Part shown: piece by piece, positions 36,127 to 54,117 of the stretch
Layout: each line of letters opens with the position of its first letter
Numbering within the stretch: the stretch's first letter is position 1
Source: Nocardioides houyundeii
GTDB taxonomy: Bacteria; Actinomycetota; Actinomycetes; Propionibacteriales; Nocardioidaceae
DNA: 64,000 nt
NCBI RefSeq assembly: GCF_002865585.1
Contig: NZ_CP025581.1
Span: forward strand, 1,054,001 to 1,118,000
Direction: 5' to 3'
Notes under the pieces: model-generated
Databases searched by the model: none
Told to the model about the DNA's origin: nothing
What the model saw: the letters and a program-made list of their open reading frames with translations, nothing else
Position numbers and translations under genes: made by a program

Positions 36127-37413
36127 CTATCGGCGCCGGGCATAGCGGATATCCCCGTTGGGGAGGCGTTCGTGCAGGTACCGGTCATCGTGGATGCGGT
36201 GATGATGGTGGCTGCACAGCAGCACGCCGTCGGCCAGGTCGGTGGCACCACCGGCGCTCCAGGGCGTGAGGTGGTGGGCCTCGCACCAGGTGGCGGGGAT
36301 GTCGCAGTCCGCCGCTCGGCAGGTCTGGTCGCGCACCGCCAGGGCCCGGCGTTGCGCGGGGCTGAAGAGTCGCGCACTACGGCCGAGGTCGAGTGGCTCC
36401 GAGGCGGTGCCCAGGACGGCGGGCACCAGCTTCGCGGTGCAGGCGAGCCGCCGGGCCTCTCCGGCGCTGATCCGCTCGCCGTTCTGCAGGGTGGCGGTCC
36501 CGAGGCCCTCCAGCAGGGCGGTCAGGTCCATGGTGAGGACCAGCGTGGTGGCGTCGCCACCGTGCAGCGGGAGCCGGCTCGGGTCGAGCCCCTCCAGCAG
36601 CGCGCAGAACGCCCGGCCGAGCCTCGTGGGGTACGGCACCTTCTCGCCGAGCAGGCTGGACGCGCCTGTGCCGGATGCTCCGGTGTTGGACGACCCCGTG
36701 CCTCGCTGGCGCGGGGAGGTGAAGGCCTCGAGCGTGCTCTGGAGTCGGGTGGCGACGGACACCGGGACGCGAGCCTTGACCAGGGCAGTGCCGTCGCCGA
36801 GGTCGCGGATCGACATCGTGCATCCGGTGCGGGCTCTGCGCTCCTGGTCCAGGAGCTTCTTGCGCTCGGTGTCCTCGAAGAGGTCCGGCGCCACGACCTC
36901 GAGGATCTTGGCGCCCAGACGCCGTAGCTCCGTGGGGCCGAAGTGGCGTGCCTCGGCGATCAGGTGGGATTCGGCCTGCTGCCGGATCGCCGGGGTGACG
37001 CCGCTGGCGGGGTCGGTGGGGAGGTCGTCCAGGGCGCGAGCGATGGCGTGCCCCTGGTCCGGGTTGACCCGGCCCTCGTCCAGCGCTCCGCCGAGGGCGT
37101 GCCACCGGTGCTCGATGGCGTTGGCCAGGCACTGGGTGCGCCGATGGGTGGCTCGATGGCCGCGGGTGCGCGCGGTGAGCCAGGCTGCGATGTCGCGGTG
37201 TCCCTCGGAGTCGGCGACGTCGGCAGACGCAGCGGTGACCCGGAGCTGGAGGGCGTGCAGCCGGGTCGTCGCCTGATCCAGGGCGAGGAGTGCCTGTCGT
37301 TTCTGGGCCACGGTCATGAAGAGCGGGTCCACACCGGCGACCTCCCGCAGCGCCGCCACGATCGCGTTGGTGCACGCCAGCACGGGGTGTTCAGTTGAGG
37401 ACGAAGGGTCCAT
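36127..37413 (-). CDS. HNH endonuclease, DUF222/13E12-repeat family
   Basis: Predicted protein of 428 residues with a DUF222 helical N-terminal region and a C-terminal HNH nuclease: CRAADCDIPATWCEAHHLTPW and GVLLCSHHHHRIHD provide the Cys-x-x-Cys-type and His residues. Several mycobacterial members of this family are controlled by LexA, and an SOS box is present upstream here. The ATG at 37413 has AGGAG 7 bases upstream. The role in DNA damage is unknown; a homing or mobile origin is possible because such genes are often multicopy. Confidence 0.88.
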   Translation of the reverse strand: MDPSSSTEHPVLACTNAIVAALREVAGVDPLFMTVAQKRQALLALDQATTRLHALQLRVTAASADVADSEGHRDIAAWLTARTRGHRATHRRTQCLANAIEHRWHALGGALDEGRVNPDQGHAIARALDDLPTDPASGVTPAIRQQAESHLIAEARHFGPTELRRLGAKILEVVAPDLFEDTERKKLLDQERRARTGCTMSIRDLGDGTALVKARVPVSVATRLQSTLEAFTSPRQRGTGSSNTGASGTGASSLLGEKVPYPTRLGRAFCALLEGLDPSRLPLHGGDATTLVLTMDLTALLEGLGTATLQNGERISAGEARRLACTAKLVPAVLGTASEPLDLGRSARLFSPAQRRALAVRDQTCRAADCDIPATWCEAHHLTPWSAGGATDLADGVLLCSHHHHRIHDDRYLHERLPNGDIRYARRR

Positions 37414-37660: not shown

Positions 37661-38030
37661 GGGGCTGATCGGTTTCGACTTGGGACGTTAGTTCCAGGAG
37701 AAGCGGGTCGAGAAGCCAGCGCCATCTCGTAAACGATCGCTGGAAAACACAGTTGCCAACTCTAATCGCAACGACTTCGCTCTCGCTGCCTGAGCAGTGA
37801 TCGAAGGGTCTGACCGGGCATCCGTCTCCGTCCCGGATCCAGGCCTCATCTAGGGGACTTGCTGATCGCTTCCTGTCAGGAGGGGTGATCGGGACTTTTT
37901 CCTGACTGGGCCTGTCGGCGACGTGTCTGTGCGAGCGCCGGGGCCGAGAAAAGCGACAACACTGACTGCACCCGGAGAAGACCTGGATCGGCGCTCGAGG
38001 ACCGGGGTTCGATTCCCCGCAGCTCCACCA
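37661..38030 (+). ncRNA. ssrA: tmRNA (transfer-messenger RNA)
   Basis: The 5' end GGGGCTGATCGGTTTCGAC and the 3' end GGTTCGATTCCCCGCAGCTCCACCA form the tRNA-like domain: GGGGCTG pairs with CAGCTCC, and the T-arm GGTTCGATTCC is standard. The CCA is encoded. The tag frame begins at GCC 37755 and ends at TGA 37793, giving ANSNRNDFALAA, which ends in the proteolysis signal ALAA. With SmpB it rescues stalled ribosomes. The 3' end is directly abutted by the mobile island. Confidence 0.96.
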
Positions 38031-38031
38031 C

Positions 38032-38094
38032 GAGGGCTTTCCCGAAATGGACCCGAACCGTTTCCCGAAATGGGACACGGTTCGGGAGGCCCTC
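38032..38094. repeat. Imperfect palindrome at the island's left end
   Basis: The left terminal repeat is followed by CCGAACCGT (38053-38061) facing ACGGTTCGG (38077-38085), and by TTCGGGAGGCCCTC (38081-38094), a near copy of the right end. TTTCCCGAAATGG recurs at 38038-38050 and 38061-38073. The nested repeats look like multiple transposase binding sites. Confidence 0.55.
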
Positions 38095-38116
38095 ACCAGC
38101 CCCCTCTAGCTACAGA

Positions 38117-38150
38117 AGGGCCCCACCACGTTCGTGGTGGGGGCCCTTTT
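38117..38150. terminator. Strong intrinsic terminator inside the left end
   Basis: GGGCCCCACCACG-TT-CGTGGTGGGGGCCC followed by TTTT (with a leading AA on the other side). It would stop the rightward ssrA transcript and possibly the leftward transposase transcript. Confidence 0.85.
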
Positions 38151-38170
38151 GGCTCCTCAGGCGGGTGTTC

Positions 38171-40117
38171 TCATGCGGCGGTTCGCTCGAGGTGCTCGAA
38201 GACCTCGTCGCCGCGGAGCACGAGGCTCTCGATGAGTTCTCCGTCGACGGGGTGGTTCATCAGCGGACTGGCGAACTGCTCGCCTGATTCGCGGCCGTGC
38301 TTCTCCAGGATGCGGATGTTGTGGCAGGCGGCTGCTGCAGCGACGGCAAGCGTCACGAGTGGCAGGCCGACGACCTGGACGAACCCTCGTCGGACGTCCT
38401 CGGTGCCGCGGTTCTTGATGTTGCCGAAGACGGCCTCGACGGCGGAGCGCAGGGCGTAGATGAGTCCCCACTCCTTGCTGCCCCAGTACTCCTCCTGCAG
38501 GTACTTCATGGGCGTGCCGGACTCGATCTGGATAGTCTGCTGGGTGCAGCACCGCGGAAGATCCTGGTCGACCTCGGCCTCAGGGGGGTGCGGTACGACG
38601 GGTGCCCCCGCCTGTCGGGCCAATCCCACGGTGCCCGGGCGGAGAGGGCATCCGACGGTGCCGGCGACGGCAGGACACTGCCACCGGGTGATTCCCAACT
38701 TGGGATCGTGCTCACCTGCTGCCGTCTTGCCCGGCGAAGCCAAGGGGCCCTTGACCATGCGCAACGCGAACTTCTCTCGTTCCGCGATCTGCTGCCTGAA
38801 CTCGGTCTGCTTCTCGGGTTCGTCAGACGGCACCAGCGTCTCCAGGTGAGCGCCCATCCTGGGGCAGTGGGGGCGGCCGTCGATCACCTTGGACCCGTAC
38901 TGGTCCATGACGCCGGGCTTGTCGGCACGCAGATCGAGAACCTGGTGGATCCGCCGTCGCCACAGCTCCATGGCCCATCGGTCGAATCGCTTGTAGCCGT
39001 AGTGTCGGTCGCCGATGAGCCGGACGAAGGGTGCGCGTGCCCGGATCTGGTCGATGAGGCGCAGGGAGACGTCGACGACGTCCTCGTTCGCCGGGGTGAG
39101 CTCGAGCGCCTGGATCAGGACGGGGAGCGCCTGCTTGCCTGCCGGGTCGTTGGTGTTGACGATGACGTGGGCCTTGTAACCGTAGATGCCGACCTGCGCG
39201 CCGCTCTTGGCCGTCTTCCCACCCCATGCGGCGTCGGGACAGAGCCACGGTGCAGGATCCTGCCGCTCCTTGTGCTCTCCCTTGACCTCGGTTGCGTCCG
39301 GTGTTCCATCGGGGTCCGGGTCCTCCACGTCGCCCGGGGTCGCGTTGTCCTGTGCTTCCGCGGCGCGGGAAGAGTCGTGCGGCGGCACGTCAGCGGTGTC
39401 TTCGTCGGCGAGGGGCCGGTCTTGGCCGCCTCCCAGGTGTCGAGAGCTGTGAGGAGCCTTGGACCATGCCCAGATGCTGGTGTCGTCGATGGCGTAGGTG
39501 CCGTGCTCGATGTTGATGAGGTGCGTCCCCTTGAGCAGGCGGGTGACGAAATCGGTGACCACTGCGTGGCGTTCGGCCTGCCGGGTCTGCAGAATCGCCC
39601 GCTGGTCTGCGTGGGGGAGTTGCCGCTCGGCGTCGGTGAGGCAGTCGGTCGTGTAGGAGAGGTTCCTCCCGAGGCCTTCGGTCATTGTGTAGAGCTGCTT
39701 GCGGGTGAGCTCTCGGACCTTCTTCTTGTCCTTGTAGACGACGATCCCGAACTCGATTCGGGTGGGGAGAGGGAGCGACTGGGCGACGACGTACATCTGC
39801 TCGATGGTGGCCTGTCCGGTGGTGAAGACGGCGGTGAGTTGGAGGGCGTAGTAGAGGGCGCCGTCCAGTCCCGCCTTCTTGCGGCCGCGGTTGGAGCTGC
39901 GGCAGTGGCGGTCCAGGACCTCTCCGACTCCGGTCGTTTTCACGAGCCAGTGGTGGCGTCGGAAGGCGGCGTCGAGCTGGGCCAGGAGGTTCGGGTGGAG
40001 ACGAACGATGGCGGAGATATTGGGCTCCTTGATGTCATGCGTCGTGAGGAGAGACGCGAAGTCCGGGTCGATTCCCTCTGCGGTGTTCGAGTTCTTCGTG
40101 GGCGTGGAGCTGGACAT
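38171..40117 (-). CDS. DDE transposase, IS4/IS1182-like
   Basis: About 648 residues from ATG 40117. A catalytic triad can be placed: TYAIDDTSIWAW (Asp near 211), VRLIGDRHYGYKRF (Asp near 369) and SAVEAVFGNIKNRG (Glu near 561), the last followed by the LAVAAAAACHNIRIL helix typical of these transposases. A Cys-containing stretch near TRWQCPAVAGTVGCPLRPG may bind metal. It reads towards the left terminal repeat, 77 bases past its stop. An N-terminal extension in frame is not supported. The family is inferred from motif spacing; it appears intact, so the island may still move. Confidence 0.8.
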   Translation of the reverse strand: MSSSTPTKNSNTAEGIDPDFASLLTTHDIKEPNISAIVRLHPNLLAQLDAAFRRHHWLVKTTGVGEVLDRHCRSSNRGRKKAGLDGALYYALQLTAVFTTGQATIEQMYVVAQSLPLPTRIEFGIVVYKDKKKVRELTRKQLYTMTEGLGRNLSYTTDCLTDAERQLPHADQRAILQTRQAERHAVVTDFVTRLLKGTHLINIEHGTYAIDDTSIWAWSKAPHSSRHLGGGQDRPLADEDTADVPPHDSSRAAEAQDNATPGDVEDPDPDGTPDATEVKGEHKERQDPAPWLCPDAAWGGKTAKSGAQVGIYGYKAHVIVNTNDPAGKQALPVLIQALELTPANEDVVDVSLRLIDQIRARAPFVRLIGDRHYGYKRFDRWAMELWRRRIHQVLDLRADKPGVMDQYGSKVIDGRPHCPRMGAHLETLVPSDEPEKQTEFRQQIAEREKFALRMVKGPLASPGKTAAGEHDPKLGITRWQCPAVAGTVGCPLRPGTVGLARQAGAPVVPHPPEAEVDQDLPRCCTQQTIQIESGTPMKYLQEEYWGSKEWGLIYALRSAVEAVFGNIKNRGTEDVRRGFVQVVGLPLVTLAVAAAAACHNIRILEKHGRESGEQFASPLMNHPVDGELIESLVLRGDEVFEHLERTAA

Positions 40118-40248
40118 GGGAGTGGGTCCTGTCGTCGTGGGTTGAATGACGACCGGGACCGTGAGGACCCGTTGAACCGGGGCAATCGCGACACCGGCTG
40201 GGCCGCCGGCGAGACGGGTGAGGTCCGTCACGCCGGCGGCCCCCGGTG

Positions 40249-42312
40249 TCAGCGCATACCTCGCACGTCCCCTTCGGCAGGCAGGTGCTCCATGAGTTCG
40301 ACGAGAGAGCGAGCCGTGGTCAGGCCGGCTGCCTGCAGCAGCACGTGCAGGGGAGTGGTGCGCTGCAGGTGGGTGGCCAGCCACGTGGAGCGCAGCCGTG
40401 CCTGAGCCAGGTCCGGGACCTCCTTGCTCAGGACGGCTCGGGAGAAGACGGCGGCGGCGACGTTGGCGCGCTCGGCATCGCGACCGAGCAGCAGGCGCCC
40501 ACGCTTGGCGCCTTTGATGCCGATGCGTACCAGGTCCTCGTACTCGCGCAGGACCCAGACCTTTCGGTGATGCCGGTTCTCGGTGTTGTCCTTCGTCCTG
40601 CGGAGGTTGGTCACGTGGACCTCGATGCCCGTGTCGGGGCCGTGGTCGATCACGTCGTCGCCTTCGAGCCGCTTGAGGTCGGTCGAGTCGATGCCAGCGC
40701 CGGCCCCGAGTCCGACGAGCAGACACATCTGGCGCACCAGGAGGTCGCTGGGCTGGACGCGGGCCACCCGCCGGATCACCGCCATCTCCGCCAGGGAGTA
40801 CGGCGGGGCGACAGTGCGGTGAGCCAGCGGAGGCCCCTTGACCGGAGCCTCGTCGGGATGGATCTGGTCGGCCATGGCCATCAGCCGCGAGCGACGGGTC
40901 TGACGGGTGGCCCGGCCGGCGTCGACGAGCACCTCGGTGTCGTAGCGGCTTACGTTCGTCCGGGTGAGTACCGAGGGCTGAAGCGGGAGTTCGACGGTGC
41001 GGACCCAGTGGAAGAAGTACGCCAGGTGCGTCACGTGCTTTCGCATGCTGTCGTCACCACGCACCGAGGAAGCGGCCAGCGTGGTCTCGACTGCGCTCTT
41101 GAGGTGGTCCCACTGCGACCGGACCGGCTCGAGCGGGATGTACTCCTCGCGGATGAATGTCTGCATGGACTCCGGCAGGGATGCTGCCCTGGCTTGACGG
41201 TCAGCGTTGGCTGCGGCCAGTGCGAGCCGCATCTGGCGCGCTGACGGCTTCCGGCGGCGGGGAGCAGGAGCAGCGGGCTCGTTGAGGGTCTCGGGGTGGT
41301 GGTTCTCTCGTGCCGGGGACTGTGGGCTGATGGACACGTTGGACGGACCTCCGGGTGCTGGGTGGACGAGTGCGTCGGCCTCGGTTGTCGCCTCGAGGTC
41401 GTCGTCACCGTGCCTGCGTGACGCCGTGGTGCAGTCGCCGAGAAGGACTGCTTCGTCGCTACGAGGCCCAGCCATGGGTCCCGTCCCTTCACGCAAGATC
41501 TCGCGGTAGAGCGCGTCGTCGACCGTCGGCAACAACGGCGCTGCTTCGGTGGCGGTGCGACGAGTCGCGCCGATGCCGCGGAGCGTCTCGGCCAGGGACT
41601 CCCGCATGGGGTGGCTCAGGGCGTGCACGTGCTGCGTCCGCCGTACCTGGGACTTGCTCAGATCGACAGCCAGTCCCGTGGCGACGGCGCGCGCGTGCGC
41701 CCACTCGGAGGCGCTGACGTCCTCCGGGCTACACAGGGACGCAGCGAGAACTGCGTCCTGCTTGGCGGCGGAGAGGAGGAGCGACCACGTCTCGTCGGAG
41801 TACACCAGCACGGCGGCATCGGGCGACGTGGGCTTGTCCGAGGTGCGCGACTGACGGTCTTCGGTGCCTAAGACCTGGACGCTGCTCGCTGCTTCGGCCG
41901 AGGAGGATCCGGCGTTCAGGCTGGCCCGGGTCTTCAGTACCCGCCGTACCCGAGCCCGGACGTTGCCCAGAGCGCCGTCCCCCAGGCTGGTGGGGTTGGC
42001 GCGCAGGAACCGTTGGAGGGAGTCCTCGGACAGCCCCTCGTCCAGGTCGTTGACCAGGGGCATAGCCCAAGCGAGGAGCTCAAGGACGGCGCTTGCGATG
42101 CGACGTGCCTCGGTGACGCCGGCAGCTGGTGCAGCTGAGATCCAGGGCTCGAGCTCGGCGCGGTGCCCATTCCAGACAGCCGCCGCACGCTCGCTTCGGG
42201 GGTTGTAGTCATCTGCCCAGGTGCTGAGGTCGCCGGCGGCGCGGCCATGCCAATCCTGTGTGGTGGTGCCGGTAGTAGGGACGATGTTCTGGGTCTTCTT
42301 CGGCTTGCTCAT
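40249..42312 (-). CDS. Tyrosine-recombinase-like protein without catalytic residues
   Basis: About 687 residues from ATG 42312. The last 320 or so residues follow the integrase layout: a SAM-like helical domain (MQTFIREEYIPLEPV onward), then a catalytic-type domain with LLVGLGAGAGIDSTDLKRLE where box I normally carries Arg, and LRSTWLATHL then LLQAAGLTT where HxxR and LGH-T-Y would be. Box I Arg, the LGH His and the Tyr nucleophile are all absent. The N-terminal half is unrecognised. It lies 131 bases upstream of the transposase start on the same strand and may be an accessory DNA-binding subunit. Confidence 0.6.
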   Translation of the reverse strand: MSKPKKTQNIVPTTGTTTQDWHGRAAGDLSTWADDYNPRSERAAAVWNGHRAELEPWISAAPAAGVTEARRIASAVLELLAWAMPLVNDLDEGLSEDSLQRFLRANPTSLGDGALGNVRARVRRVLKTRASLNAGSSSAEAASSVQVLGTEDRQSRTSDKPTSPDAAVLVYSDETWSLLLSAAKQDAVLAASLCSPEDVSASEWAHARAVATGLAVDLSKSQVRRTQHVHALSHPMRESLAETLRGIGATRRTATEAAPLLPTVDDALYREILREGTGPMAGPRSDEAVLLGDCTTASRRHGDDDLEATTEADALVHPAPGGPSNVSISPQSPARENHHPETLNEPAAPAPRRRKPSARQMRLALAAANADRQARAASLPESMQTFIREEYIPLEPVRSQWDHLKSAVETTLAASSVRGDDSMRKHVTHLAYFFHWVRTVELPLQPSVLTRTNVSRYDTEVLVDAGRATRQTRRSRLMAMADQIHPDEAPVKGPPLAHRTVAPPYSLAEMAVIRRVARVQPSDLLVRQMCLLVGLGAGAGIDSTDLKRLEGDDVIDHGPDTGIEVHVTNLRRTKDNTENRHHRKVWVLREYEDLVRIGIKGAKRGRLLLGRDAERANVAAAVFSRAVLSKEVPDLAQARLRSTWLATHLQRTTPLHVLLQAAGLTTARSLVELMEHLPAEGDVRGMR

Positions 42313-42508
42313 GCGGCGGACCGTCCCGAGTTGCCCCGAGGGTGCCAATCACTGCCGCCCGCGTTCTCTCGTGGGGGAGAAGACAGATTCGGCTGCCGCT
42401 GTGAGCTGCAAGGCAGCCCCAACTGGTGACCCCGGGTCACAAACGATTCAGACCCCCGCAGACGTCGGGGCAAACGGCCCGACGCTGCGGTGAGCCAGCT
42501 GGAGCCAC

Positions 42509-42916
42509 ATGATGAAGAACCAGCCGTCACAGCTCGTCCCCGCGAGCGTGACCAACACCGGCACTGACAGGGCCGGCGTCCGGACGTTCGCCGCCGAGGT
42601 GGTGCTGATCCGCAACTGGGTGGAGACGATCCGCCGCTGCGCGACCGTCACCGCCCACGGCACGCTCGGAGGTCAACTCCCCGAGTGCGAGGAGCTCTTG
42701 GAGCTCCTCGAGGCCAATGAGGCAGCCATCCTCTCCGACATCCCTGACGGAGCCGCCCTGCTCGACAGGCTGGCGGGCTGGGAAGCCAGCTTGTTGCACG
42801 CCGCCGGACATGTCCCGCCTTCTGACTGCCTGATCTGCCAACGCGCCAAGGCGATTCCCGACTCCATGCCCGCCGAGTACGCGTGGGCCATGCGGGTGAT
42901 CGACGAAGCAGCCTGA
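42509..42916 (+). CDS. Hypothetical protein, helical, 135 residues
   Basis: Not recognised. It contains ECEELLELLEANEAAILSD, an acidic helical stretch, and a Cys pair in SDCLICQRAK that could bind metal. GGAG precedes the ATG closely. It is divergent from the recombinase-like gene and followed by a long hairpin. Confidence 0.6.
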   Translation: MMKNQPSQLVPASVTNTGTDRAGVRTFAAEVVLIRNWVETIRRCATVTAHGTLGGQLPECEELLELLEANEAAILSDIPDGAALLDRLAGWEASLLHAAGHVPPSDCLICQRAKAIPDSMPAEYAWAMRVIDEAA

Positions 42917-42924
42917 GATAGACG

Positions 42925-42963
42925 CGAGGGGTCGGAGAACCAGACTGGTTCTCCGACCCCTCG
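42925..42963 (+). terminator. Perfect 18-bp hairpin after the hypothetical gene
   Basis: CGAGGGGTCGGAGAACCA (42925-42942) pairs exactly with 42946-42963 around the loop GAC. No T tract follows, so it may be a terminator or a protein-binding palindrome. It separates the transposition genes from the restriction operon. Confidence 0.6.
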
Positions 42964-43127
42964 ACGCGTGCGGCTGGCCCCGAGTGGGAGTGACTGCGCT
43001 TCCGAGGCCATTGACGGACGGTGATGCTCGCCGCCGGGCACGCAGTCAGATCCGGTTCGGCAGGCACCTTGAGAACTCAACAGAGCACGCAGCCGCGTGA
43101 AGCCACGAGCGAGCTGGCCAGGCGACC

Positions 43128-43143
43128 ATGAGGAGGTGATATT
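43128..43143 (+). promoter_or_regulatory. Strong ribosome site with a three-codon minigene before hsdM
   Basis: ATGAGGAGGTGA encodes Met-Arg-Arg-stop and also forms an AGGAGGTGA Shine-Dalgarno sequence. The next in-frame codon of the hsdM frame at a proper distance is ATT (43141-43143); the first ATG of that frame is at 43189. Confidence 0.4.
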
Positions 43144-43188
43144 ACGTCGTCTGTCCGCTTGGTCGTGGCTTCGGCTGTCGACACAAGG

Positions 43189-45218
<2,030 letters not shown>

Positions 45219-45222
<4 letters not shown>

Positions 45223-46436
45223 CGCGCCGCCGCATCGTGCTCGCCGACGCTTTGGCTGCGCTCATTGACCACCGTGGGAAGACCCCGAAGAAACTCGGTG
45301 GCGATTGGACGACTGACGGCCATCGCGTGGTGTCCGCACTCAACATCAAGGGAAGCCGCGTCGACGACAACGACCACCACTACATCTCGAACGAGATGTA
45401 CGAACGGTGGATGAAGGTGCCGTTAGCGGCGGGGGACGTGCTCTTGACCTCGGAAGCACCAACGGGGGAAGTCGCATACCTGTCAGAGCAGCAGGATTGG
45501 GCGATCGGTCAGCGACTCTTCGGTCTCCGCGGCAAACCCGATCTCCTTCACGGGCGTTACCTGTTCTACGCGCTGAGGGGCGGAGACGCCCGTCATCAGA
45601 TGCTGTCGCGAGCCACTGGGACCACGGTCGCCGGGATCAGACAGTCCGAGTTGGTCAAGATCGAACTGGACCTTCCTCCCGTCGAGGAGCAACGTGCGAT
45701 CGCCGCCACCCTCGGCGCCCTCGACGACAAGATCGAGTCCAACCGCCGCGCGGCAACCCTTGAACTCGCGCTCGCTGCGACGGTGCTTGCCAGCGGAACC
45801 GAAGCGATCCGCGTCGGCGACATCGCCGGCGTCGATAAGGGTCTTTCGTACAAGGGCTCGGGCCTCGATGACGGCTCAGCGACGGATGCAATCCCGATGG
45901 TCAACCTTGCGAACTTCACCACGTCGGGAGCGCTCAAGCCAGACGGCCTGAAGTACTACACCGGCGACTTCAAGCCGAAGCATCGCCTCGCGGCGTGGGA
46001 CCTCGTCGTGGCCAATACGGACCTCACCCAGAGTCGGGAGATCCTCGGGCGAGGTTTCCTCGTCCCAACGACACTGCAAGGGGCTCTGCACACGCACCAC
46101 ACTTCGGTTCTTCGGTTCCGTGAGCGTTCGGAACTCGCGCCCTTTCTGTGGGCCGAGCTGCAATCACCCGAGTTCCGCGACCGTGCGAAGGGGTTTGCGA
46201 CCGGAACGACCGTGACCGCACTGCCCGGAGAAGCACTGCTGGACTTCGACTTCTCAGTCCCCTCCGATCCAGAGCCAGCGCTGGCCGCGGCGCGTGGACT
46301 GATTGAGCATTCCTGGCAACTCGCGAGCGAGTCAGCCGCGCTCACCACAACACGCGACGCACTGTCGCCCGAGTTGCTCTCTGGTCGCATTCGCGTGCCA
46401 GAGGCCGCCGCCGTCGTACAAGATGGCACCGGGTAA
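45219..46436 (+). CDS. hsdS: Type I restriction-modification specificity subunit HsdS
   Basis: Predicted protein of 405 residues with two target-recognition halves. The conserved spacer LPPVEEQRAIAATLGALDDK near residue 150-170 and the matching end of the second half (FDFSVPSDPEPALAAARGL) are standard. The second half begins at IRVGDIAGVDKGLSYKG. The start is the TTG at 45219, overlapping the hsdM stop; a GTG at 45237 is an alternative. The DNA sequence recognised cannot be predicted. Confidence 0.92.
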
Positions 46437-46448
46437 AGGGAGGCAGTC

Positions 46449-48140
46449 GTGGGCAAGTCGGACTATCCGGTCAGGGAGCTCGTTGCCAAGATCGAGCGCG
46501 GGGAACTGCAGCTGCCGGAGATGCAGCGCAAGTACGTGTGGACGGCCACCAAGGTGCGTGACCTGCTGGACTCGCTGTATCGAGAGTATCCGTCCGGGGT
46601 AATCCTCACTTGGCAGCCGGCGGCGAAGGTCGAGACCCGGGCGTTCGCGGTGGACACCAGCACCGATGCCGTTGCCGCGCCCCTCCTGCTGCTCGACGGA
46701 CAGCAGCGCCTCACCTCGCTGTCCGCGGTACTACGCGGTGAGCCGGTCACGGTGAAGAACCGCAAGCGCCCTGTCGAGATCCTGTTCAACCTCGACCACC
46801 CTGATGAGCTCACCTTCATCACCGAGGTGGCCGAGGACAACGACAGCCACGAGGACGCCGACGACGCGGACGACGCGGACTCCGATCTGATCACACGGGT
46901 GAACCGCCGGGCGTTCGTCGTAGCCAGCAACCAAGTTGCCGCCTTGCCCAATTGGGTCAAGGTGACAGACGTGTTCAAGAAGTCTGACTCCGAGCTGCTC
47001 AAAGCGGCTGGAGTCACGGGCTTCGACGATCCCAACTACGAGCGCTACTCGGCACGCCTCCAGCAGTTGCGGTCAATCGCTGACTACTCCTACCGCGTCG
47101 ACATCCTAGAGCCATCGAAGTCTTACGAGGAGGTCACTGAGATCTTTGTGCGCGTCAACTCGCTCGGAGCCAAGTTGCGCAGCTCTGACCTTGCGCTGGC
47201 CCAGATCACCGCCAAGTGGAACGGGTCCCTCGCACTGTTCAACGCTTACCAAGCGGACGTCACTAAGCGCGGCTTCGACCTCGACCTCGGCGTCCACCTG
47301 AAGAACCTCATCGCGATCATCACCGGACAGTCCCGTTTTCTCACAGTCTCGTCGATGACCCAACAGACCCTCGAGGTCGGATGGAAGCGAACCAAGCGGG
47401 CCATGGACTTCGCGGTCAACTTCGCCCAACAGAACATCGGCGTTGACAGTCCCACCCTGCTGTCGTCGCCGTTCCTCATGATCGCCACCGCTTACTGGGG
47501 CGCGCAGATGGACTACAAGATCTCGGACGCAGACGCCGCCGCGTTCAGGAAGTGGTTCCTCCTGGCCAACGCTAAGGGTCGCTACTCCCGAGGTTCCACT
47601 GAGACGTTGCTTGATCAGGACCTTGCTGCGCTTCGATCGGATGACAAGGTGGGTGGACTCAACCAACGACTGATCCAGCAGGTCGGACGACTCGACTTCA
47701 CCGCTGCCGACTTGGCTGGCCGTACATCCCGCAGCGGCGCCTTCAAGACGATGTTCCTTGCATTCCGCGCCGACAGCGCGAAGGACTGGGCGACGAATCT
47801 ACTCATCAGTCCGAAGCTTGCTGGACAAGCCGACAAGATTGAGTTCCACCACGTCTTCCCGAAAGCATTCATGAAGAAGGCGCGGCCCGACATCGACGGC
47901 CGCGAGGTCGACGACATCGCCAATCTCGCCTTTATCAGCTCCAGGACCAACAAGGACATCAGCGCCAAAGCACCGGCCGACTACGCGCCTCACTACTCCA
48001 AGGAGCTTCTCGCGAAGCAGTTGGTCGTCTTTGACGACACCAACGCGGTGCCTGAGGCATTCGAGAAGTTCGTCATTCAGCGCCGCGAGCTGATCGCTGC
48101 GCGCCTCAACGAGTACCTTGACGTTGCGGAGAGCCAGTGA
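46449..48140 (+). CDS. DUF262/DUF1524 (GmrSD-type) protein within the type I operon
   Basis: Predicted protein of 563 residues. The N-terminal ParB-like DUF262 domain shows LQLPEMQRKYVW and LLLLDGQQRLTSLSAV (near 82), the nucleotide-binding DGQQR motif. The C-terminal part has EFHHVFPKAFMKK and DDIANLAFISSRTNKDIS, an HNH-type nuclease (HH near 466, N and following residues). GmrSD relatives attack modified phage DNA using NTP. It lies between hsdS and hsdR with a GGGAGG site, and GTGA overlap to hsdR, so it belongs to the restriction operon. Confidence 0.88.
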   Translation: MGKSDYPVRELVAKIERGELQLPEMQRKYVWTATKVRDLLDSLYREYPSGVILTWQPAAKVETRAFAVDTSTDAVAAPLLLLDGQQRLTSLSAVLRGEPVTVKNRKRPVEILFNLDHPDELTFITEVAEDNDSHEDADDADDADSDLITRVNRRAFVVASNQVAALPNWVKVTDVFKKSDSELLKAAGVTGFDDPNYERYSARLQQLRSIADYSYRVDILEPSKSYEEVTEIFVRVNSLGAKLRSSDLALAQITAKWNGSLALFNAYQADVTKRGFDLDLGVHLKNLIAIITGQSRFLTVSSMTQQTLEVGWKRTKRAMDFAVNFAQQNIGVDSPTLLSSPFLMIATAYWGAQMDYKISDADAAAFRKWFLLANAKGRYSRGSTETLLDQDLAALRSDDKVGGLNQRLIQQVGRLDFTAADLAGRTSRSGAFKTMFLAFRADSAKDWATNLLISPKLAGQADKIEFHHVFPKAFMKKARPDIDGREVDDIANLAFISSRTNKDISAKAPADYAPHYSKELLAKQLVVFDDTNAVPEAFEKFVIQRRELIAARLNEYLDVAESQ

Positions 48141-51100
48141 TCGGTCTAGACGAGTCTGTGATCGAGCAAGCCGCGCTCGACTACCTCCGCGAGATCGGCT
48201 ACGCGATCGAGTTCGGCCCGAACATTGGCCCCGGGGGGCCCGCGGAGGAGCGCGCCTCGTGGGACGAGGTGTATCTGTTCGACCGGCTTCAAGCGGCGGG
48301 CCAACGACTCAACCCTGATCGCGCCGACCTGGTTGACGAGGCGATCAAACGCCTGCGTCGCGCGGAGTCCCAGTCCGAGCTCACCGAGAACCTTCGCGTC
48401 CACCAGCTCCTCATAGATGGGGTGCCAGTTGAGCACCGAGGCTCTGACGGCCAGGTGCGAACGGCCTACGTCCGGCTCATCGACTTCGACGCCCCTGACA
48501 ACAACGACTGGCTGGCCGTCAACCAAGCCGCGATCACGGGGAACCGCAATCGTCGCCCCGACGTGCTTATCTACCTGAACGGCATACCGGTCGCGCTACT
48601 CGAGCTGAAGAACTCCGCCGACGAGCACGCGACGTTGCGCACTGCCTGGAACCAGGTGCAGACCTACCGAACCGACATCCCGACGGTTTTCACGGCCAAC
48701 GCCGTCACCGTCATCTCAGACGGCACGTCCGCGGCGATGAGCTCGTTCACCGGCGCCTTCGAGCACTACGCACCGTGGAAGACCATCGACGGCCGTGACG
48801 TCGTCACGAACAAGCCCGCCCTTGAAGTCCTCCTCAAAGGCGTCTTCAACCCGACGCGGTTCCTCGATCTGCTGAAGAACTTCGTCGTCTTCTCCGACGA
48901 GGCCCACGGCATGGTGAAGCGCGTCGCGAAGTACCACCAGTACTGGGCAGTCAACGCAGCCGTCGAGTCGACAGTCGAGGCGGCCGGCCCAGCCGGCGAT
49001 CGCCGCGGCGGCGTCGTCTGGCACACGCAGGGCTCGGGCAAGAGCATCGAGATGCTCCTGTACGCCGCCAAGGTGATGCGAGACCCCCGGATGGGCAATC
49101 CGACCCTGGTCCTTCTTACCGACCGCAACGACCTGGATGACCAGCTCTTCGGTGAAGTCTTCGCGCCCGCAACGATCCTTCCCGAGAAGCCTGTCCAGGC
49201 CGACTCCCGCGCCCACCTCCGCACGCTGCTGCAACGTGTCTCGGGCGGCATCGTCTTCACGACGCTCCACAAGTTCGCACCCCTCGCCGGCGAGGATGTC
49301 AACCCGGTCCTCACCGACCGTCGCAATGTCGTCGTTATTGCCGATGAGGCGCACCGGTCGCAGTACGGCTTCAACGAGACCCTCGCCTCCGATGGAAACT
49401 TGAAGGCCGGTCTCGCCAAGCACATGAGAGACGCACTCCCCGGCGCCACATTCTTGGGGTTCACTGGCACCCCGATCGAGTCCGGGGACAAGTCGACTCG
49501 CTCGGTGTTCGGGAACTACATCGACGTGTACGACCTGACCCGCGCGGTCGAGGACGGCGCCACAGTGAAGATCTACTACGAGTCCCGTCTGGCCAAGGTC
49601 GCCCTCTCAGAGGCCGACATGACGGCGCTTGATGAGCTCGCCGAGGAGATCACCAGCGAGGTCGACGAAGACCAGGCCCTCAAGACGAAGTCGAAGTGGG
49701 CCCGCCTCGAGGCCGTCGTGGGCGCCGATGAACGCCTGGACCTGATCGCAGCCGACGTAGTCCAGCACTGGGAGAAGCGTCGGGAAGCGATGCTGGGCAA
49801 GGCGATGATCGTGGCGATGTCGCGCCGCATCGCCGTGCGGCTCTACGAAAAGATCGTCGCTCTCCGCCCCGACTGGCACTCCGACGACCCAGCAGCCGGA
49901 CGCATCAAGGTCGTGATGACCGGGTCCGCGGCAGATCCGCCCGCGTTCCAGCCCCACATCCACTCCAAGGACGTCCGACGAGACCTCAAGTCTCGGGCGA
50001 AGAACCCGGACGACGCGCTAGAACTGGTCATCGTCCGCGACATGTGGCTCACCGGCTTCGACGCCCCTTCGATGCACACGATGTATGTGGACAAGACCAT
50101 GCAGGGAGCCGGCCTGATGCAGGCCATCGCCCGCGTCAACCGCACCTTCCGTGACAAGGAGGGCGGCTTGGTCGTCGACTACATCGGCGTCTTCTCAAAC
50201 CTCCAGAAGGCACTGGTCGAGTACTCGCCCTCCGACCGGGATCAGGCTGGCGTCCCGATCGAAGAGATCGTCGATGCCATGCTCGAGAAGCACGACGTCG
50301 TCCGAGGACTGCTCCACGGATGTCCGTACGACTCCTCGCCGGACCTCACGGCCGGACAGCGGCTTGCTGAACACGCCATGGTGCTCGACTTCGTCATGGC
50401 CGACCCGGACCGGCAAAAGCGCTTCCTAGATCAGGTCCTGGCGCTCGCCAAGACCTACGCCCTCGCCGGAGCACGGGAAGAAGCCGCGGTCATCCGCAAT
50501 GACGTACGCCTCTTCACCGACGTCCGCGCTGCGATCCTCAAGATCCTCAACCCCGACTCCGGACGCGGCGGTTCCGGCGCCGTGGAAATCGACACCGCCA
50601 TCGGACAACTGGTCAACGAGGCGGTCACCGCCGACGAGGTCATCGACATCTACAAGCTCGCCGGAGTGGAGACCCCGGAGATCTCAATCCTTTCCGACGA
50701 GTTCCTGGACTCTCTGGCGCACAAGGACAAACCCAACCTCCAGCTCGGTCTCCTACGTCGGATCCTCAACGATCGGATCAAGACCGTCTCCCGATCGAAC
50801 CTGGTGCAGTCACGGAAGTTCTCTGAACAGCTCGAAGAAGCAATCAACAAGTACACCAACCGGTCTCTCTCGACCGCGGAGATCATCGCCGAACTTGTCA
50901 AGCTCGCCAAAGAGATGCGTGACCAGGCCAGCCGCCACGATGAGCTCGGCCTGTCCGTCGCGGAAGCCGCCTTCTACGACGCGATCGTTCAGAACCAGGC
51001 GGCCGTCCTCGAGCTGGGCGACGACAAGCTCAAGAAGATCTCCGTAGACCTCGTCTGGTCAGTGCGCAACTCGGCCACCATCGACTGGCAGCACAAGGAT

Positions 51101-51229
51101 TCCGTCAAGGCAAGCATGAGGTCGAAGATTCGCCGCCTCCTCGCGATCAACGGTTACCCGCCCGACCTAGAGGAAAGGGCAATAGAGCTCGTCCTCGAGC
51201 AGGCTGAACTACACGCCGTGAGCGTGTGA
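48137..51229 (+). CDS. hsdR: Type I restriction endonuclease subunit HsdR
   Basis: Predicted protein of 1030 residues, the translocating nuclease subunit. NRRPDVLIYLNGIPVALLEL followed by KN gives the PD-ExK nuclease motif (near 140-157). WHTQGSGKSIEMLLYA is Walker A (near 297), VVVIADEAHRSQYG the DEAH box (near 402), and FLGFTGTPIESGD motif III. A long helical C-terminus that binds HsdM completes a normal length. The system should cut unmodified DNA at a distance from its site. Confidence 0.95.
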   Translation: MIGLDESVIEQAALDYLREIGYAIEFGPNIGPGGPAEERASWDEVYLFDRLQAAGQRLNPDRADLVDEAIKRLRRAESQSELTENLRVHQLLIDGVPVEHRGSDGQVRTAYVRLIDFDAPDNNDWLAVNQAAITGNRNRRPDVLIYLNGIPVALLELKNSADEHATLRTAWNQVQTYRTDIPTVFTANAVTVISDGTSAAMSSFTGAFEHYAPWKTIDGRDVVTNKPALEVLLKGVFNPTRFLDLLKNFVVFSDEAHGMVKRVAKYHQYWAVNAAVESTVEAAGPAGDRRGGVVWHTQGSGKSIEMLLYAAKVMRDPRMGNPTLVLLTDRNDLDDQLFGEVFAPATILPEKPVQADSRAHLRTLLQRVSGGIVFTTLHKFAPLAGEDVNPVLTDRRNVVVIADEAHRSQYGFNETLASDGNLKAGLAKHMRDALPGATFLGFTGTPIESGDKSTRSVFGNYIDVYDLTRAVEDGATVKIYYESRLAKVALSEADMTALDELAEEITSEVDEDQALKTKSKWARLEAVVGADERLDLIAADVVQHWEKRREAMLGKAMIVAMSRRIAVRLYEKIVALRPDWHSDDPAAGRIKVVMTGSAADPPAFQPHIHSKDVRRDLKSRAKNPDDALELVIVRDMWLTGFDAPSMHTMYVDKTMQGAGLMQAIARVNRTFRDKEGGLVVDYIGVFSNLQKALVEYSPSDRDQAGVPIEEIVDAMLEKHDVVRGLLHGCPYDSSPDLTAGQRLAEHAMVLDFVMADPDRQKRFLDQVLALAKTYALAGAREEAAVIRNDVRLFTDVRAAILKILNPDSGRGGSGAVEIDTAIGQLVNEAVTADEVIDIYKLAGVETPEISILSDEFLDSLAHKDKPNLQLGLLRRILNDRIKTVSRSNLVQSRKFSEQLEEAINKYTNRSLSTAEIIAELVKLAKEMRDQASRHDELGLSVAEAAFYDAIVQNQAAVLELGDDKLKKISVDLVWSVRNSATIDWQHKDSVKASMRSKIRRLLAINGYPPDLEERAIELVLEQAELHAVSV

Positions 51230-51396
51230 CGGTCCGGTCGTAGCCAACGCTTTCGGGTCCACAGGCTGGCTGTCAGACGGCTCACTCGATCGAAGATTCG
51301 CACCGTGAAGCCGTCCCACCTCTCGACACTGAGCTCTCGATGCACCGAATGGCCCTGTGACTCGGCCATGTTTCCCTAGGATTCGAGGAAACGGGG

Positions 51397-52332
51397 ATGG
51401 GAGCTGCCGCTGTGGCCATGAAGAAGATGAAGAAGACAGTCGCCTTTTACGAAGTCCGCGACGAGAATGACCAGCCAATGGCGGGGGAGGACTGGCAGCG
51501 GCATCTTCAAGACCTACTGCGTCGCCAGCACATCGAGGGCGTCGCCTCTGTGCGGCATGCGATCGAAGGGCTCCGGCACTATGGCCAGGCATACGCGCAT
51601 GAGAGTGAGCTCAGCCTGGTCATCGCGCGCGAGAGGGATGAGCCGCCTTCCTCGTTGGATGAGGCATCGGGCGAGATAATCGATGAGTCCACGCAGGTCA
51701 ATCGACCGTGGGTAGAGATCGGGGTCGCCTCGTTCGTTGCAGGTACCAACATCTTCGGATACGTCCTTGGGGGTATGTCCGCTCCCCGCGCAGGGGCTGT
51801 CGCGCAGTGGATCAACGTGGACGGGCGAATGTTCGGCGAGCCTGTCTCGGTGCGCCCGTATACGTCAGAAGCGCTCGTCAACTTCCTTCAAGATGGATCC
51901 TCTGAGGCCCGGATGGTGAGTGTCCAGCTTGATGCGGGTCAGATCTACGGTGAGCAGGTCGAGGGCGCAGGTCTTTTTTCTGCAACGCAGCAAATTGGCC
52001 GAGAACTGGATCTCGGACCCGAAGTCGACGTAGAGGTCATCTTGCGGATTCGCGGACGCTCGGACGGTGCCACGGAGACCACCCGACGCACTTTGGCAGA
52101 TCTGGGTCGTGGCCTCCTAGGCCGACGTGTTCGGGGAGCGCAGGCGGAGGTCGTCGACTTCGACCCGGATTCGTTGATGGAACGGGAGATGGTGGACCTC
52201 GTCAAGCACCGTATGGCGACCAAGGAGGACGTCTCGGTCATGGATGCCGAGGGCGAAGGTCGTCAGGTCCGCATACCGTCTGCTATCAACGCGATCAGCC
52301 GCGCGGCCAGCCGTCTCCAGATCAGCGGATAG
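51397..52332 (+). CDS. Uncharacterised island protein, 311 residues
   Basis: Not firmly recognised. It begins MKKMKKTVAFYEVRDENDQP after a short Ala leader and ends with a Lys/Arg-poor helical stretch (ATKEDVSVMDAEGEGRQVRI). The opening strand and layout recall DUF6731-like proteins, but I cannot confirm this. GAGGA lies 7 bases before ATG 51397. No membrane helix is evident. It is followed 54 bases later by a membrane protein, and the two may work as a sensor and membrane partner; that is inference from their place next to a restriction system. Confidence 0.65.
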   Translation: MGAAAVAMKKMKKTVAFYEVRDENDQPMAGEDWQRHLQDLLRRQHIEGVASVRHAIEGLRHYGQAYAHESELSLVIARERDEPPSSLDEASGEIIDESTQVNRPWVEIGVASFVAGTNIFGYVLGGMSAPRAGAVAQWINVDGRMFGEPVSVRPYTSEALVNFLQDGSSEARMVSVQLDAGQIYGEQVEGAGLFSATQQIGRELDLGPEVDVEVILRIRGRSDGATETTRRTLADLGRGLLGRRVRGAQAEVVDFDPDSLMEREMVDLVKHRMATKEDVSVMDAEGEGRQVRIPSAINAISRAASRLQISG

Positions 52333-52386
52333 TGCGGGTGTCGGTGCTCGCGTCTAGCCTCTCCGTCCTGACATGAGGGGGCAGTT

Positions 52387-52980
52387 ATGAACAGCAGCGC
52401 ACCTACACCCGACGAGCGCACGGTGGTAGCCAAGATCATCGACTGGTGGCTGGGTCGGGTTTGGCCGGATTGGGCAATCGTCGCACTTGTCGTTCTCGTG
52501 CATCTTGCGCTGTATAGATGGGGCCCGTGGGTTGACTGGGCCATCCGAGACATACCAACCGAACAGCGGCGCTTCATCTATGTCGGTCTAGCTACCGTGG
52601 CCGCTCTCGTGGCTGGTAGCAACAACACGGCTGTGGGCTCGTATGTTTCCTCGGCGGGCGATGTCATGAAAGACATCAGAATCAGTCACGGCAGGTCGAT
52701 GCGCAAGAGTCTTAGAAGCAACGGGATCTGGTTGTGGCTAGTTGCTGTTGTGTCTCTGGTCTGCATCGCCTTGGATCCGATGCAAGCCGCCCACCCTGGG
52801 CGCACGCGCGGCGCTGCGTGGGTTGCCGAGGCGGCGCTCTTGCTCATCATCGTCAAGTACGGACGGCTTGTCATGATGCAGGACGTCCTACTCGCCGCAA
52901 ACGATCTATCGCGTCAGCGTGAGGTCGTGAAGCAGCGTGCCCGAGAACCGCGACAGTTCAAGCGACCAGTTGTGAAGTGA
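52387..52980 (+). CDS. Uncharacterised membrane protein with about four helices
   Basis: Predicted protein of 197 residues. Hydrophobic segments lie near 30-48 (WAIVALVVLVHLALYRW), 66-85 (YVGLATVAALVAGSNNT), 115-135 (IWLWLVAVVSLVCIALDP) and 145-165 (WVAEAALLLIIVKYG), with a basic C-terminal tail. AGGGGGC precedes the ATG. No family is recognised. Small multi-helix proteins in defence islands are often membrane-disrupting effectors, but nothing in the sequence proves that here. Confidence 0.65.
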   Translation: MNSSAPTPDERTVVAKIIDWWLGRVWPDWAIVALVVLVHLALYRWGPWVDWAIRDIPTEQRRFIYVGLATVAALVAGSNNTAVGSYVSSAGDVMKDIRISHGRSMRKSLRSNGIWLWLVAVVSLVCIALDPMQAAHPGRTRGAAWVAEAALLLIIVKYGRLVMMQDVLLAANDLSRQREVVKQRAREPRQFKRPVVK

Positions 52981-53046
52981 GCGTGGAAGTGAGTTCCGGA
53001 TGCGCCCCGAAGACGTTTCGTGAAAGACACAACAAGGGAGTCGCCC

Positions 53047-53715
53047 GTGGCATTGGCCAGTAACAAACTCATCGCGACTATCGACGCGGCCGTGGCGGTA
53101 TCAGCCAGCGAGGTCGAGAAGTTCGTGGAGGCCGCGCGGCGCCGCCTTCCGGACATGCCTGACAGCGACCTGATCATCGCTTTGGAACGTTCCTACACAG
53201 GTCTCGTTGCTACGACTGGCGCTGCCGCTGGCGGTGTTGCTGCTGCCCCGGGGGTCGGCCTCGCTAGTGGAGCGCTCGCCGCGGCTGCGGACGCCAGTGC
53301 GTTCACAACAGCGACAGCTGTGTACGTACTCGGGGTCGCTTCTGTCCATGGCATTGCCGTCGAGGAGATCGAGCGTAGGAAGGCATTGATCCTGACGGTG
53401 TTGGTTGGGCCCGGCGGTGTGGGTGTCGTTGAGAGAATTGCCGGACGCACAGGCGCCCATTGGGGTCGCCGAGTTACACAAGCCGTTCCGCTTACGACAA
53501 TCCGCCAGATCAATCGAGTCCTTGGACGCAACGTCGTCACCAAGTACGGGACCAAGCAAGGCATCCTGGTGATCGGCAAGATGGCGCCGTTCGGCTTCGG
53601 CGCTGCCATTGGGGCTGGTGGCAACGTGGCGCTAGCTCGTATGGCGGTCCGCTCCACCCGTTCGGCCTTTGGCCCGCTCCCCTCGGCTGCGGATGAGGCG
53701 TCAGCATCCAAGTGA
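53047..53715 (+). CDS. Gly/Ala-rich hypothetical protein, EcsC-like region possible
   Basis: Predicted protein of 222 residues from GTG 53047, which follows AAGGGAG by 6 bases. It has a helical N-terminus (EVEKFVEAARRRLPDM), amphipathic Gly/Ala-rich stretches (GAAAGGVAAAPGVGLASGAL), and a C-terminal KMAPFGFGAAIGAGGNVALA motif seen in many uncharacterised actinobacterial proteins. It is the last gene before the island's right end, so it could be cargo. Confidence 0.6.
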   Translation: MALASNKLIATIDAAVAVSASEVEKFVEAARRRLPDMPDSDLIIALERSYTGLVATTGAAAGGVAAAPGVGLASGALAAAADASAFTTATAVYVLGVASVHGIAVEEIERRKALILTVLVGPGGVGVVERIAGRTGAHWGRRVTQAVPLTTIRQINRVLGRNVVTKYGTKQGILVIGKMAPFGFGAAIGAGGNVALARMAVRSTRSAFGPLPSAADEASASK

Positions 53716-54117
53716 CCCGAGATCGTGTGCAAACTCCGCAGGTGCCGTGTGCAGCGCCTAGGACTAGTTGCACTGGATGTCCTGAGTCGCTCCTGAACGG
53801 CGATTTCGGGGAAGCCCTCACCACGACCAAGAGGTCTTCGCAGAAATCAGCGGAGATCTTCGCAGCATCACCGGTCCCGGCGGCGCAGCCGCCGAGAGCC
53901 AGCCCTCTTGAACGAGAGCCGTCCCGACGCCCGTCGGGACGGCTCTCGTGCTGTGCCCAGGGCACCCCGCAGTACCCGGGCATTCTGGCCCGTGTCAGTG
54001 CCCCGGCACCGCCCCTACAGTGAAGAGGGCAATGAGGCTCGGGCCAGGGCGTCTGCTTCGCCGTACGGCGTCCGCGCCACGTTGGCGCGGAACCGGCGCA
54101 CCGGCAAAGGAGAGGCC
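53716..54117. other. Gene-free gap containing the island right end
   Basis: No gene is supported. It holds the right terminal repeat (53803-53819), the ACCAC copy (53820-53824), a CGGCGGC-gca-GCCGCCG hairpin near 53879-53895, and a strong hairpin at 53912-53949. TACAGT at 54015-54020 is a possible -10 for the next gene. Sequence after 53820 is probably the original downstream flank of ssrA. Confidence 0.5.
53912..53949. terminator. Perfect 18-bp hairpin, probable old ssrA terminator
   Basis: ACGAGAGCCGTCCCGACG (53912-53929), loop CC, then the exact complement (53932-53949). The following bases GCTGTG contain no T run. If the island is removed it would lie about 90 bases after ssrA, where a terminator is expected. 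Confidence 0.6.

Follow-up and report, generated by a model that had tools for sequence, protein, structure and literature searches.

We analyzed a 64,000-nucleotide stretch of the Nocardioides houyundeii genome (contig NZ_CP025581.1, positions 1,054,001 to 1,118,000 of the forward strand), hereafter called the window and numbered from its first letter. Positions 38032–53819 (15.8 kb) constitute a complete transposon at the 3′ end of the transfer-messenger RNA (tmRNA) gene ssrA, bounded by 17-bp inverted ends that match imperfectly and by a perfect 5-bp target duplication, ACCAC. The element encodes a DDE transposase, a recombinase-like partner that we term p2, and restriction and other cargo. 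The features of the locus are as follows.

37661–38030 (+): tmRNA gene (ssrA), the insertion target, still predicted intact (ARAGORN)
38027–38031: ACCAC target duplication, left copy; its first nucleotide is the discriminator base, next to the last acceptor pair
38032–38048 (+): left terminal inverted repeat
38032–38094 (+): left end, long hairpin fold (z −6.1)
38060–38071 (+): repeat of the subterminal 12-nt site (11/12 identical; shift of 23 from 38037–38048)
38113–38151 (+): GC-rich hairpin, then TTTT
38171–40117 (−): DDE transposase, 648 amino acids (D211, D370, E561)
40249–42312 (−): p2, with a tyrosine-recombinase fold at its C terminus that lacks the catalytic residues; put forward as target selector
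42509–42916 (+): open reading frame (ORF) of 135 amino acids, function unknown
43159–45222 (+): HsdM, type I methyltransferase, cargo
45219–46436 (+): HsdS specificity subunit (Methylase_S), cargo
46449–48140 (+): GmrSD_N/DUF262 protein, cargo; best PADLOC match HEC-05
48137–51229 (+): HsdR restriction subunit, cargo
51397–52332 (+): cargo ORF, 311 amino acids, unknown
52387–52980 (+): cargo ORF, 197 amino acids, unknown
53020–53715 (+): cargo ORF, 231 amino acids, matching PADLOC defence candidate PDC-S29
53803–53819 (−): right terminal inverted repeat, 16/17 identical to the left
53820–53824: right copy of the target duplication ACCAC
53831–53870 (+): solo left end of the sister-lineage type (GAGGTCTTCGCAGAA..., repeat every 22 bp)
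53900–53949 (+): terminator-like hairpin (by eye), also found behind tmRNA in several relatives

An earlier, sequence-only reading of this locus had proposed the inverted ends and their ACCAC flanks, and both were confirmed. The sequence GAGGGCTTTCCCGAAAT occupies 38032–38048 on the forward strand, a copy with one mismatch occupies 53803–53819 on the reverse strand, and ACCAC directly adjoins each on its outer side (38027–38031 and 53820–53824). These are the only two matches with three or fewer mismatches in the window, where shuffled sequence yields a mean of 0.06, and the 3.84-Mb single-contig genome holds one further match to the 17-bp end at two or fewer mismatches; a chance origin of the ends was rejected on these counts. 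The near copy at 38081–38094, previously raised as a competing right end, is really the inner arm of the left end's own long hairpin. The 12-nt repeat at 38060–38071 is likely a protein-binding site, and the hairpin at 38113–38151 possibly serves as an element-borne terminator for the tmRNA transcript. The latter was absent from a consensus terminator scan of the left end, which needs five T residues, though the hairpin is strong. The gene content proposed earlier was recovered by Pfam and PADLOC (DDE_Tnp_1, HsdM, HsdS, GmrSD_N/DUF262, and HsdR), and one of the three genes then called unknown is the PDC-S29 match.

The transposase matches Pfam DDE_Tnp_1 (PF01609) with 36.2 bits against a gathering score of 23. 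It had been described as an intact-looking DDE enzyme, which stands, but the ORF listed for it (38171–40726) is over-long, and the start common to its relatives gives 38171–40117. Residues D211, D370, and E561, which we take to be the DDE triad on the basis of motif, are invariant in a 23-row alignment. The best NCBIfam match is the IS1182 model NF033551 (43 bits, under the curated cutoff of 270), and a structural model (mean predicted local distance difference test score of 75.3) has Tn5 and ISCth4 transposases as its best Foldseek matches, both weak (E 0.07 or worse). As a side observation, 22 of 29 family proteins terminate in Ala-Ala (38171–38179 in the window), a trait that seemed universal at first and was not used in the analysis. 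Such an end resembles the ssrA tag and some ClpX-recognized tails, and may tie transposase turnover to ClpXP.

The neighboring gene p2 had been described as recombinase-like. Structure comparison of the modeled protein, covering residues 399 through 688, revealed a tyrosine-recombinase fold, whereas the window copy has no Pfam match and PF00589 matches only 2 of 28 aligned members. When the relative from L111 was aligned to an archaeal Xer-type solved chain (loci and genomes are cited by our L and G handles), the Arg of its GARASDL motif fell on the Arg of GLRVSEL, the first catalytic Arg. This column holds Arg in 1 of 28 p2 rows. The His of HxxR and the His of the GH motif, positions placed by motif rather than by the Xer alignment, occur in none of the 28, the Arg of HxxR is invariant, and there is no conserved Tyr. 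Judged from these residues, p2 is a dead recombinase. It lies directly upstream of the transposase in 39 of 43 loci, or 39 of the 41 with upstream sequence, since L091 and L107 retain almost none to search. The profile scan on which this count is based found no match in L091, L096, L099, L103, or L107, with L103 matched in another scan. In L088, L089, L092, L098, L102, L104, L105, L108, and L112 the p2 profile matches two ORFs each, and here, though less surely in L098 and L104, p2 may consist of separate genes for its N- and C-terminal parts. Where source annotation names these proteins, the transposase is a "transposase" or "hypothetical protein" and p2 a "hypothetical protein." For both proteins, the best-named relatives come from Nocardioides.

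The 43 loci derive from several searches. Among 396 Actinomycetota genomes, 14, counting the source genome, contained a match to the window transposase; transposase profile A1 matched 19 of 196 genomes of the genus and 19 of 396 of the phylum, the last set overlapping the 14; and a search of genome contigs gave 14 loci. We dropped duplicates (L144, which equals the N. ferulae locus L100, and L163, which coincides with L088), additional ORF fragments of a single gene (L089, L092, L098, L108, L151, and L152), a second transposase fragment in L093, and loci with less than 300 bp downstream (L106, L110, and L111). By this sequence evidence, relatives of the transposase and p2 pair are spread across Actinomycetota. 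No family relative was found among INPHARED phages or in 72 pattern stretches from IMG/VR, and PLSDB gave one weak match, in Streptomyces clavuligerus.

A tmRNA or tRNA gene lies 75 to 277 bp past the transposase stop codon in 23 of the 43 loci, always on the opposite strand and with its 3′ end meeting the element. Seven further loci have an end-like sequence at a more distant RNA gene: it abuts tmRNA 1.2 to 8.2 kb from the transposase in L088, L089, L149, L150, L151, and L152, and the 3′ half of a tRNA-Met (by eye) in L090. The value for 23 of 43 is 4e-51 in a simple density model that takes 52 genes per 4 Mb and treats the loci as independent, an assumption that near-copies violate. As a control, tRNA genes were sought in the 1.5-kb flanks of 30 loci of the same genus that match the IS1182 model (5 of 59 genomes in this sample exceed the cutoff), and 1 had such a neighbor, ending ~115 bp before the match (L221). 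None of these 30 flanks contained a p2 or family-transposase match. In both G281 and G323, two family members each sit at different RNA genes; the pairs are L094/L162 (tRNA-Met and tRNA-Gly) and L090/L091 (the tRNA-Met half and tmRNA).

The search that had been suggested for the same ends and transposase pair elsewhere was productive. Both ends and a perfect 5-bp duplication were located for 12 complete elements, namely the window element and 11 others, at tmRNA, tRNA-Ser, tRNA-Gly, or tRNA-Leu genes. Each line below gives genome, target, duplication, and length.

Window: tmRNA, ACCAC, 15.8 kb
N. ferulae: tmRNA, ACCAC, 14.4 kb
G523: tRNA-Ser(cga), GCCAA, 6.5 kb
G502: tRNA-Ser(cga), GCCAG, 6.5 kb
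G005: tRNA-Leu(cag), ACACA, 5.9 kb
G504: tRNA-Ser(cga), GCCAG, 11.7 kb
G270: tRNA-Ser(gga), GCCAC, 7.4 kb
G259: tRNA-Ser(gga), GCCAC, 6.6 kb
G575: tmRNA, ACTGA, 20.8 kb
G474: tmRNA, ACACC, 16.8 kb
Janibacter indicus: tRNA-Gly(ccc), TCAGC, 16.5 kb
Marihabitans asiaticum: tRNA-Gly(ccc), TCACC, 15.0 kb

In all 12 elements the duplication is exactly the 5 nucleotides after the last acceptor pair, with the discriminator base first. This register was read by pairing the first seven tRNA bases to the 3′ strand, and the offset of the duplication was unconstrained in the end searches. For J. indicus and M. asiaticum the register gave the duplication first, and the copy at the distal end was found afterward. 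G523 and G502, a close pair, end their duplications in different bases, and within each genome the two copies agree. A pseudo-end control (10 each for 25 loci) produced 1 match in 250; it covers the search under the stricter distal-end rules and not the searches that gave G259, G575 and G474, or J. indicus and M. asiaticum. Among lesser candidates, low-scoring distal-end matches for L089, L112, and L113 were judged to be chance (the L112 end was later located elsewhere), the distal end of L097 passed the first rule set and failed the stricter rules, and in L094 the program's pairing (6/7) was 2 nt off register. A point that the sequence-only reading had missed is that the position is not accidental: by these comparisons, the family inserts at tRNA and tmRNA 3′ ends, and both register and orientation are fixed.

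The 12-nt site recurs 22 to 23 bp inward in 22 of 29 tRNA-proximal ends (9–12 of 12 positions identical; no more than 14 of 500 shuffles scored as high), and the right end of the window element carries a single copy (by eye). This difference in repeat copies could account for the single orientation. In G270 (L093), the right end of the element (position 17612) is followed by another GGGGTCT end, and a second transposase fragment overlaps 17429–18151, perhaps a tandem insertion at one tRNA-Ser.

Empty sites offer a further view of the insertion. When the flanks of the window element are joined with one ACCAC kept, they can be aligned to the sequence behind the tmRNA in seven relatives, and in four of these (G434, G461, G447, and G463) a search of ~20 kb found neither transposase nor p2. 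The empty-site check that had been proposed therefore holds for these four at the level of a tmRNA 3′ end joined to the homologous right flank. The shared downstream sequence starts with GRGGTCTTCGCAGAA plus a 22-bp repeat, which is the left end of a sister lineage whose complete element is present in G474. The solo left end at 53831–53870 is probably what is left of a previous insertion at this tmRNA. A window-type element in G575 directly precedes such a sister-lineage relic, and no transposase or p2 was found in ~20 kb near a solo end in G446. Because the downstream sequence itself begins with the sister-lineage left end, the ssrA end seems to have been hit repeatedly. Solo left ends of the sister-lineage or a similar type also occur behind tmRNA in the window's genus without a transposase nearby (L210–L214), and are possibly domesticated tmRNA trailers. 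In G002 (L052:7738–13142), a 5.3-kb segment between two 117-bp direct repeats (95%) begins at the tmRNA 3′ end and holds, by eye, a short hsdM-like ORF, an OLD-like ATPase gene, and a GmrSD-like gene; it may be a cargo-only element lacking the transposase.

Target identity is clustered on a quick transposase tree, which requires 10 changes compared with 14.8 when targets are shuffled (0 of 200 shuffles as low). The tree contains 27 of 28 rows, L095 having been left out because of an out-of-frame cut. Tested alone, tmRNA (2 of 500 shuffles as low) and tRNA-Ser (0 of 500) are each clustered.

We propose that these elements represent a target-specific DDE transposon family distinct from Tn7, in which the dead integrase p2 delivers the transposase to tRNA acceptor ends, and we hold this to be the probable explanation. 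As the anatomy of the 12 elements suggests, the DDE (RNase H-type) transposase would cut and join the inverted ends, leaving 5-bp duplications. Comparison shows that insertion occurs at the tRNA or tmRNA 3′ end with the discriminator nucleotide as the first duplicated base, and because the duplication starts there, the RNA gene is restored and remains intact. It also shows that the transposase-proximal end, usually with its two repeats 22 to 23 bp apart, is the one facing the RNA gene. Most likely, p2 attaches to the tRNA gene at its T-arm/acceptor part and brings the transposase there, and lineages have switched to different tRNAs. The cargo of the element includes defence systems, and behind tmRNA it provides a hairpin that would act as a terminator. 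Comparison among elements bears out the target specificity, boundaries, duplications, register, orientation, co-inheritance of p2, and lineage-wise choice of target. The selector role of p2 is suggested by its kinship, its constant partnership with the transposase, and the precedent of TnsF, and also because the distant IS1182 loci that lack p2 show no tRNA preference. As to origin, the family may be a distinct class of homing transposon, in which an IS1182-like transposase took over a tyrosine integrase directed at tRNA genes and retained its targeting while its chemistry was lost; p2 would then read the acceptor/T-arm end and have been re-aimed several times to different tRNAs and tmRNA, as a natural, modular address reader for DDE integration that is independent of Tn7 and CRISPR. 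We consider this reading about as likely as not.

Several results weigh against the proposal. The transposase could find the site itself, the targeting role of p2 being our inference, and L096 and L099 have no p2 match (the L099 transposase is short, at 165 amino acids). No tRNA was found in the sequence examined for 13 of the 43 loci (L092, L098, L103, L105, L107, L108, L109, L146 twice, L147, L148, L159, and L161). Among the seven distant cases, a verified distal end is available only for L151 (G474), the L090 tRNA is a 3′ half recognized by eye, and the link between end and transposase in L088, L089, L149, L150, and L152 is presumptive because tmRNA genes can also be followed by solo ends that have no transposase. 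Of the 29 loci examined for register, 12 yielded a distal end, leaving 17 without, many of which span only 8 to 17 kb, whereas others may have diverged ends; L113 has no recognizable end, and the 22- to 23-bp repeat was not seen in 7 of 29 ends (L089, L094, L095, L113, L157, L158, and L160). On the tree, tRNA-Gly is not clustered (91 of 500), tRNA-Leu and tRNA-Met are too few, and near-copies help the clustering. The exact predicted pre-insertion string (CAGCTCC, a single ACCAC, then GACCAAGAGG) is present in no relative, so that the empty sites match only as homologous flanks. Finally, the IS1182 control includes many weak matches, along with several fragments that belong to a single gene.

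The strongest competitor holds that the DDE transposase itself recognizes the tRNA or tmRNA 3′ end, with p2 in an accessory role such as end binding, regulation, or help with synapsis. DDE elements that are site-specific and have no dedicated selector are known in general, and the tRNA-proximal repeats call for a protein that binds them, a part that p2 could play. Nevertheless, we judge this unlikely, given that p2 is co-inherited across very divergent members (39 of 43), that tRNA 3′ ends are the classical targets of tyrosine integrases, the relatives of p2, and that IS1182-model loci lacking p2 have a tRNA at only 1 of 30, though their transposases are distant from the family's.

If p2 were an active tyrosine integrase, the locus would be an ordinary integrative island at the tmRNA 3′ end with the transposase as passenger. 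Such ends are typical integrase sites and the p2 C terminus has the appropriate fold, but this account is highly improbable and was rejected: the right end has no tRNA-derived attachment (att) repeat, only 5 bp (8 bp with adjoining chance matches), the p2 catalytic residues are lost while the DDE triad is invariant, and the 12 elements, with their inverted ends and 5-bp duplications, already contradict it. The earlier preference for transposition with a 5-bp duplication over integrase-type insertion is thus supported, both by the empty-site relatives and by the homologous elements. Equally improbable is untargeted insertion in which copies at tRNA ends are over-represented because they are harmless there and others were purged. 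The 13 loci lacking a tRNA would fit such a process; the same register in 12 of 12 elements and the single orientation in the 23 near loci do not, as selection would permit many intergenic positions. That an insertion sequence and a separate restriction island are chance neighbors with coincidentally matching 17-bp ends can practically be dismissed despite the shortness of the repeats, since only 0.06 chance matches are expected and the N. ferulae and G575 elements, with nearly the same ends around other cargo, already refute it.

The proposed p2-guided transposition has partial parallels among known systems. One report describes TnsF as an inactivated tyrosine recombinase that aims the Tn7-like transposon Tn6022 at comM, working with TnsABC and TniQ, and also covers Tsy (PMC10293859). 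The likeness is one of a selector derived from a tyrosine recombinase for one conserved host site, shared with both TnsF and Tsy, and, for Tn6022, of target-site duplications (PMC10293859). Unlike Tn6022, the family described here has a DDE_Tnp_1 (IS1182-like) transposase and targets tRNA and tmRNA 3′ ends. It resembles Tn7-like transposons in the 5-bp target duplication of its 12 elements and in orientation-specific insertion at the end of a conserved host gene, but a Pfam scan of ten island ORFs found no TnsA, TnsB, TnsC, or TniQ domains, and thus no rve-type TnsB transposase with its partners. Some Tn7-like transposons and CRISPR-associated transposons home to tRNA genes, placing a DDE transposon with defence-rich cargo beside the gene; here, by contrast, insertion lies inside the 3′ end, the duplication runs from the discriminator base, and both transposase and partner are different. 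IS1182 transposases belong to Pfam DDE_Tnp_1, as does the transposase studied here, for which NF033551 is the best NCBIfam match; it differs in scoring far under the cutoff and in its long extra regions, its p2 partner, its cargo, and its location at tRNA ends. Tyrosine-integrase islands share the kind of target and the integrase fold of p2, but not the lost catalytic residues, the DDE transposase, or the 5-bp duplications in place of att repeats. YopR, SroF, and MrpR, DNA-binding regulators not known to have recombinase activity, share the p2 fold, but they are phage regulators rather than transposon partners.

Our searches of the open-access literature found no description of this transposon family, which is apparently undescribed. 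Islands at tRNA ends are generally credited to tyrosine integrases, and a family that occupies such ends by DDE transposition means that some of them, defence islands included, have possibly been mis-explained. If our proposal is correct, it adds a second case, independent of Tn7, in which a dead tyrosine recombinase serves as a transposon target selector, which would indicate that such co-option recurs, and a compact system of two genes (three where p2 is split) that would insert up to ~20 kb at a precise, conserved, and apparently harmless site. The register rule, by which the duplication starts from the discriminator nucleotide, makes the claim directly testable.

The cargo of the elements was scanned through selected ORFs of each, except for G502, whose transposase is nearly identical to that of G523. 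Restriction or other defence matches were found in 8 of the 12 elements. Besides the type I restriction and GmrSD genes of the window, these comprise HsdM and HsdR in N. ferulae; HsdM in G474; a type IIG/ISP enzyme and a TIR protein in G504; an EcoRI-type methylase, a GmrSD/HNH restriction enzyme, and Abi_2 in G259; a 1597-amino acid type ISP enzyme in J. indicus; and, less surely, a PLD/SNF2 protein in M. asiaticum with C3a139 as its best PADLOC match. G575 carries AbiH, a 581-amino acid ORF whose first 40 residues are the same as those of the N. ferulae HsdM, and a STAND protein with a sub-threshold SIR2 match and no PADLOC match. A Schlafen AlbA_2 protein in G270 is doubtful as defence, and the scanned ORFs of G523 and G005 gave no defence match.

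A few minor observations remain. The family members in L146, L147, L148, L159, and L161 have p2 matches and no tRNA in ~20 kb downstream (3.5 kb for the second L146 member), and possibly use a different target or are decayed copies. The N. ferulae element has, by eye, an ORF of equal length and similar start at the place matching the 135-amino acid ORF of the window (42509–42916). Upstream of the tmRNA, the ORF at 36127–37413 (−) has an HNH-like C terminus (by eye) and is presumably of a kind often repeated in actinobacteria.

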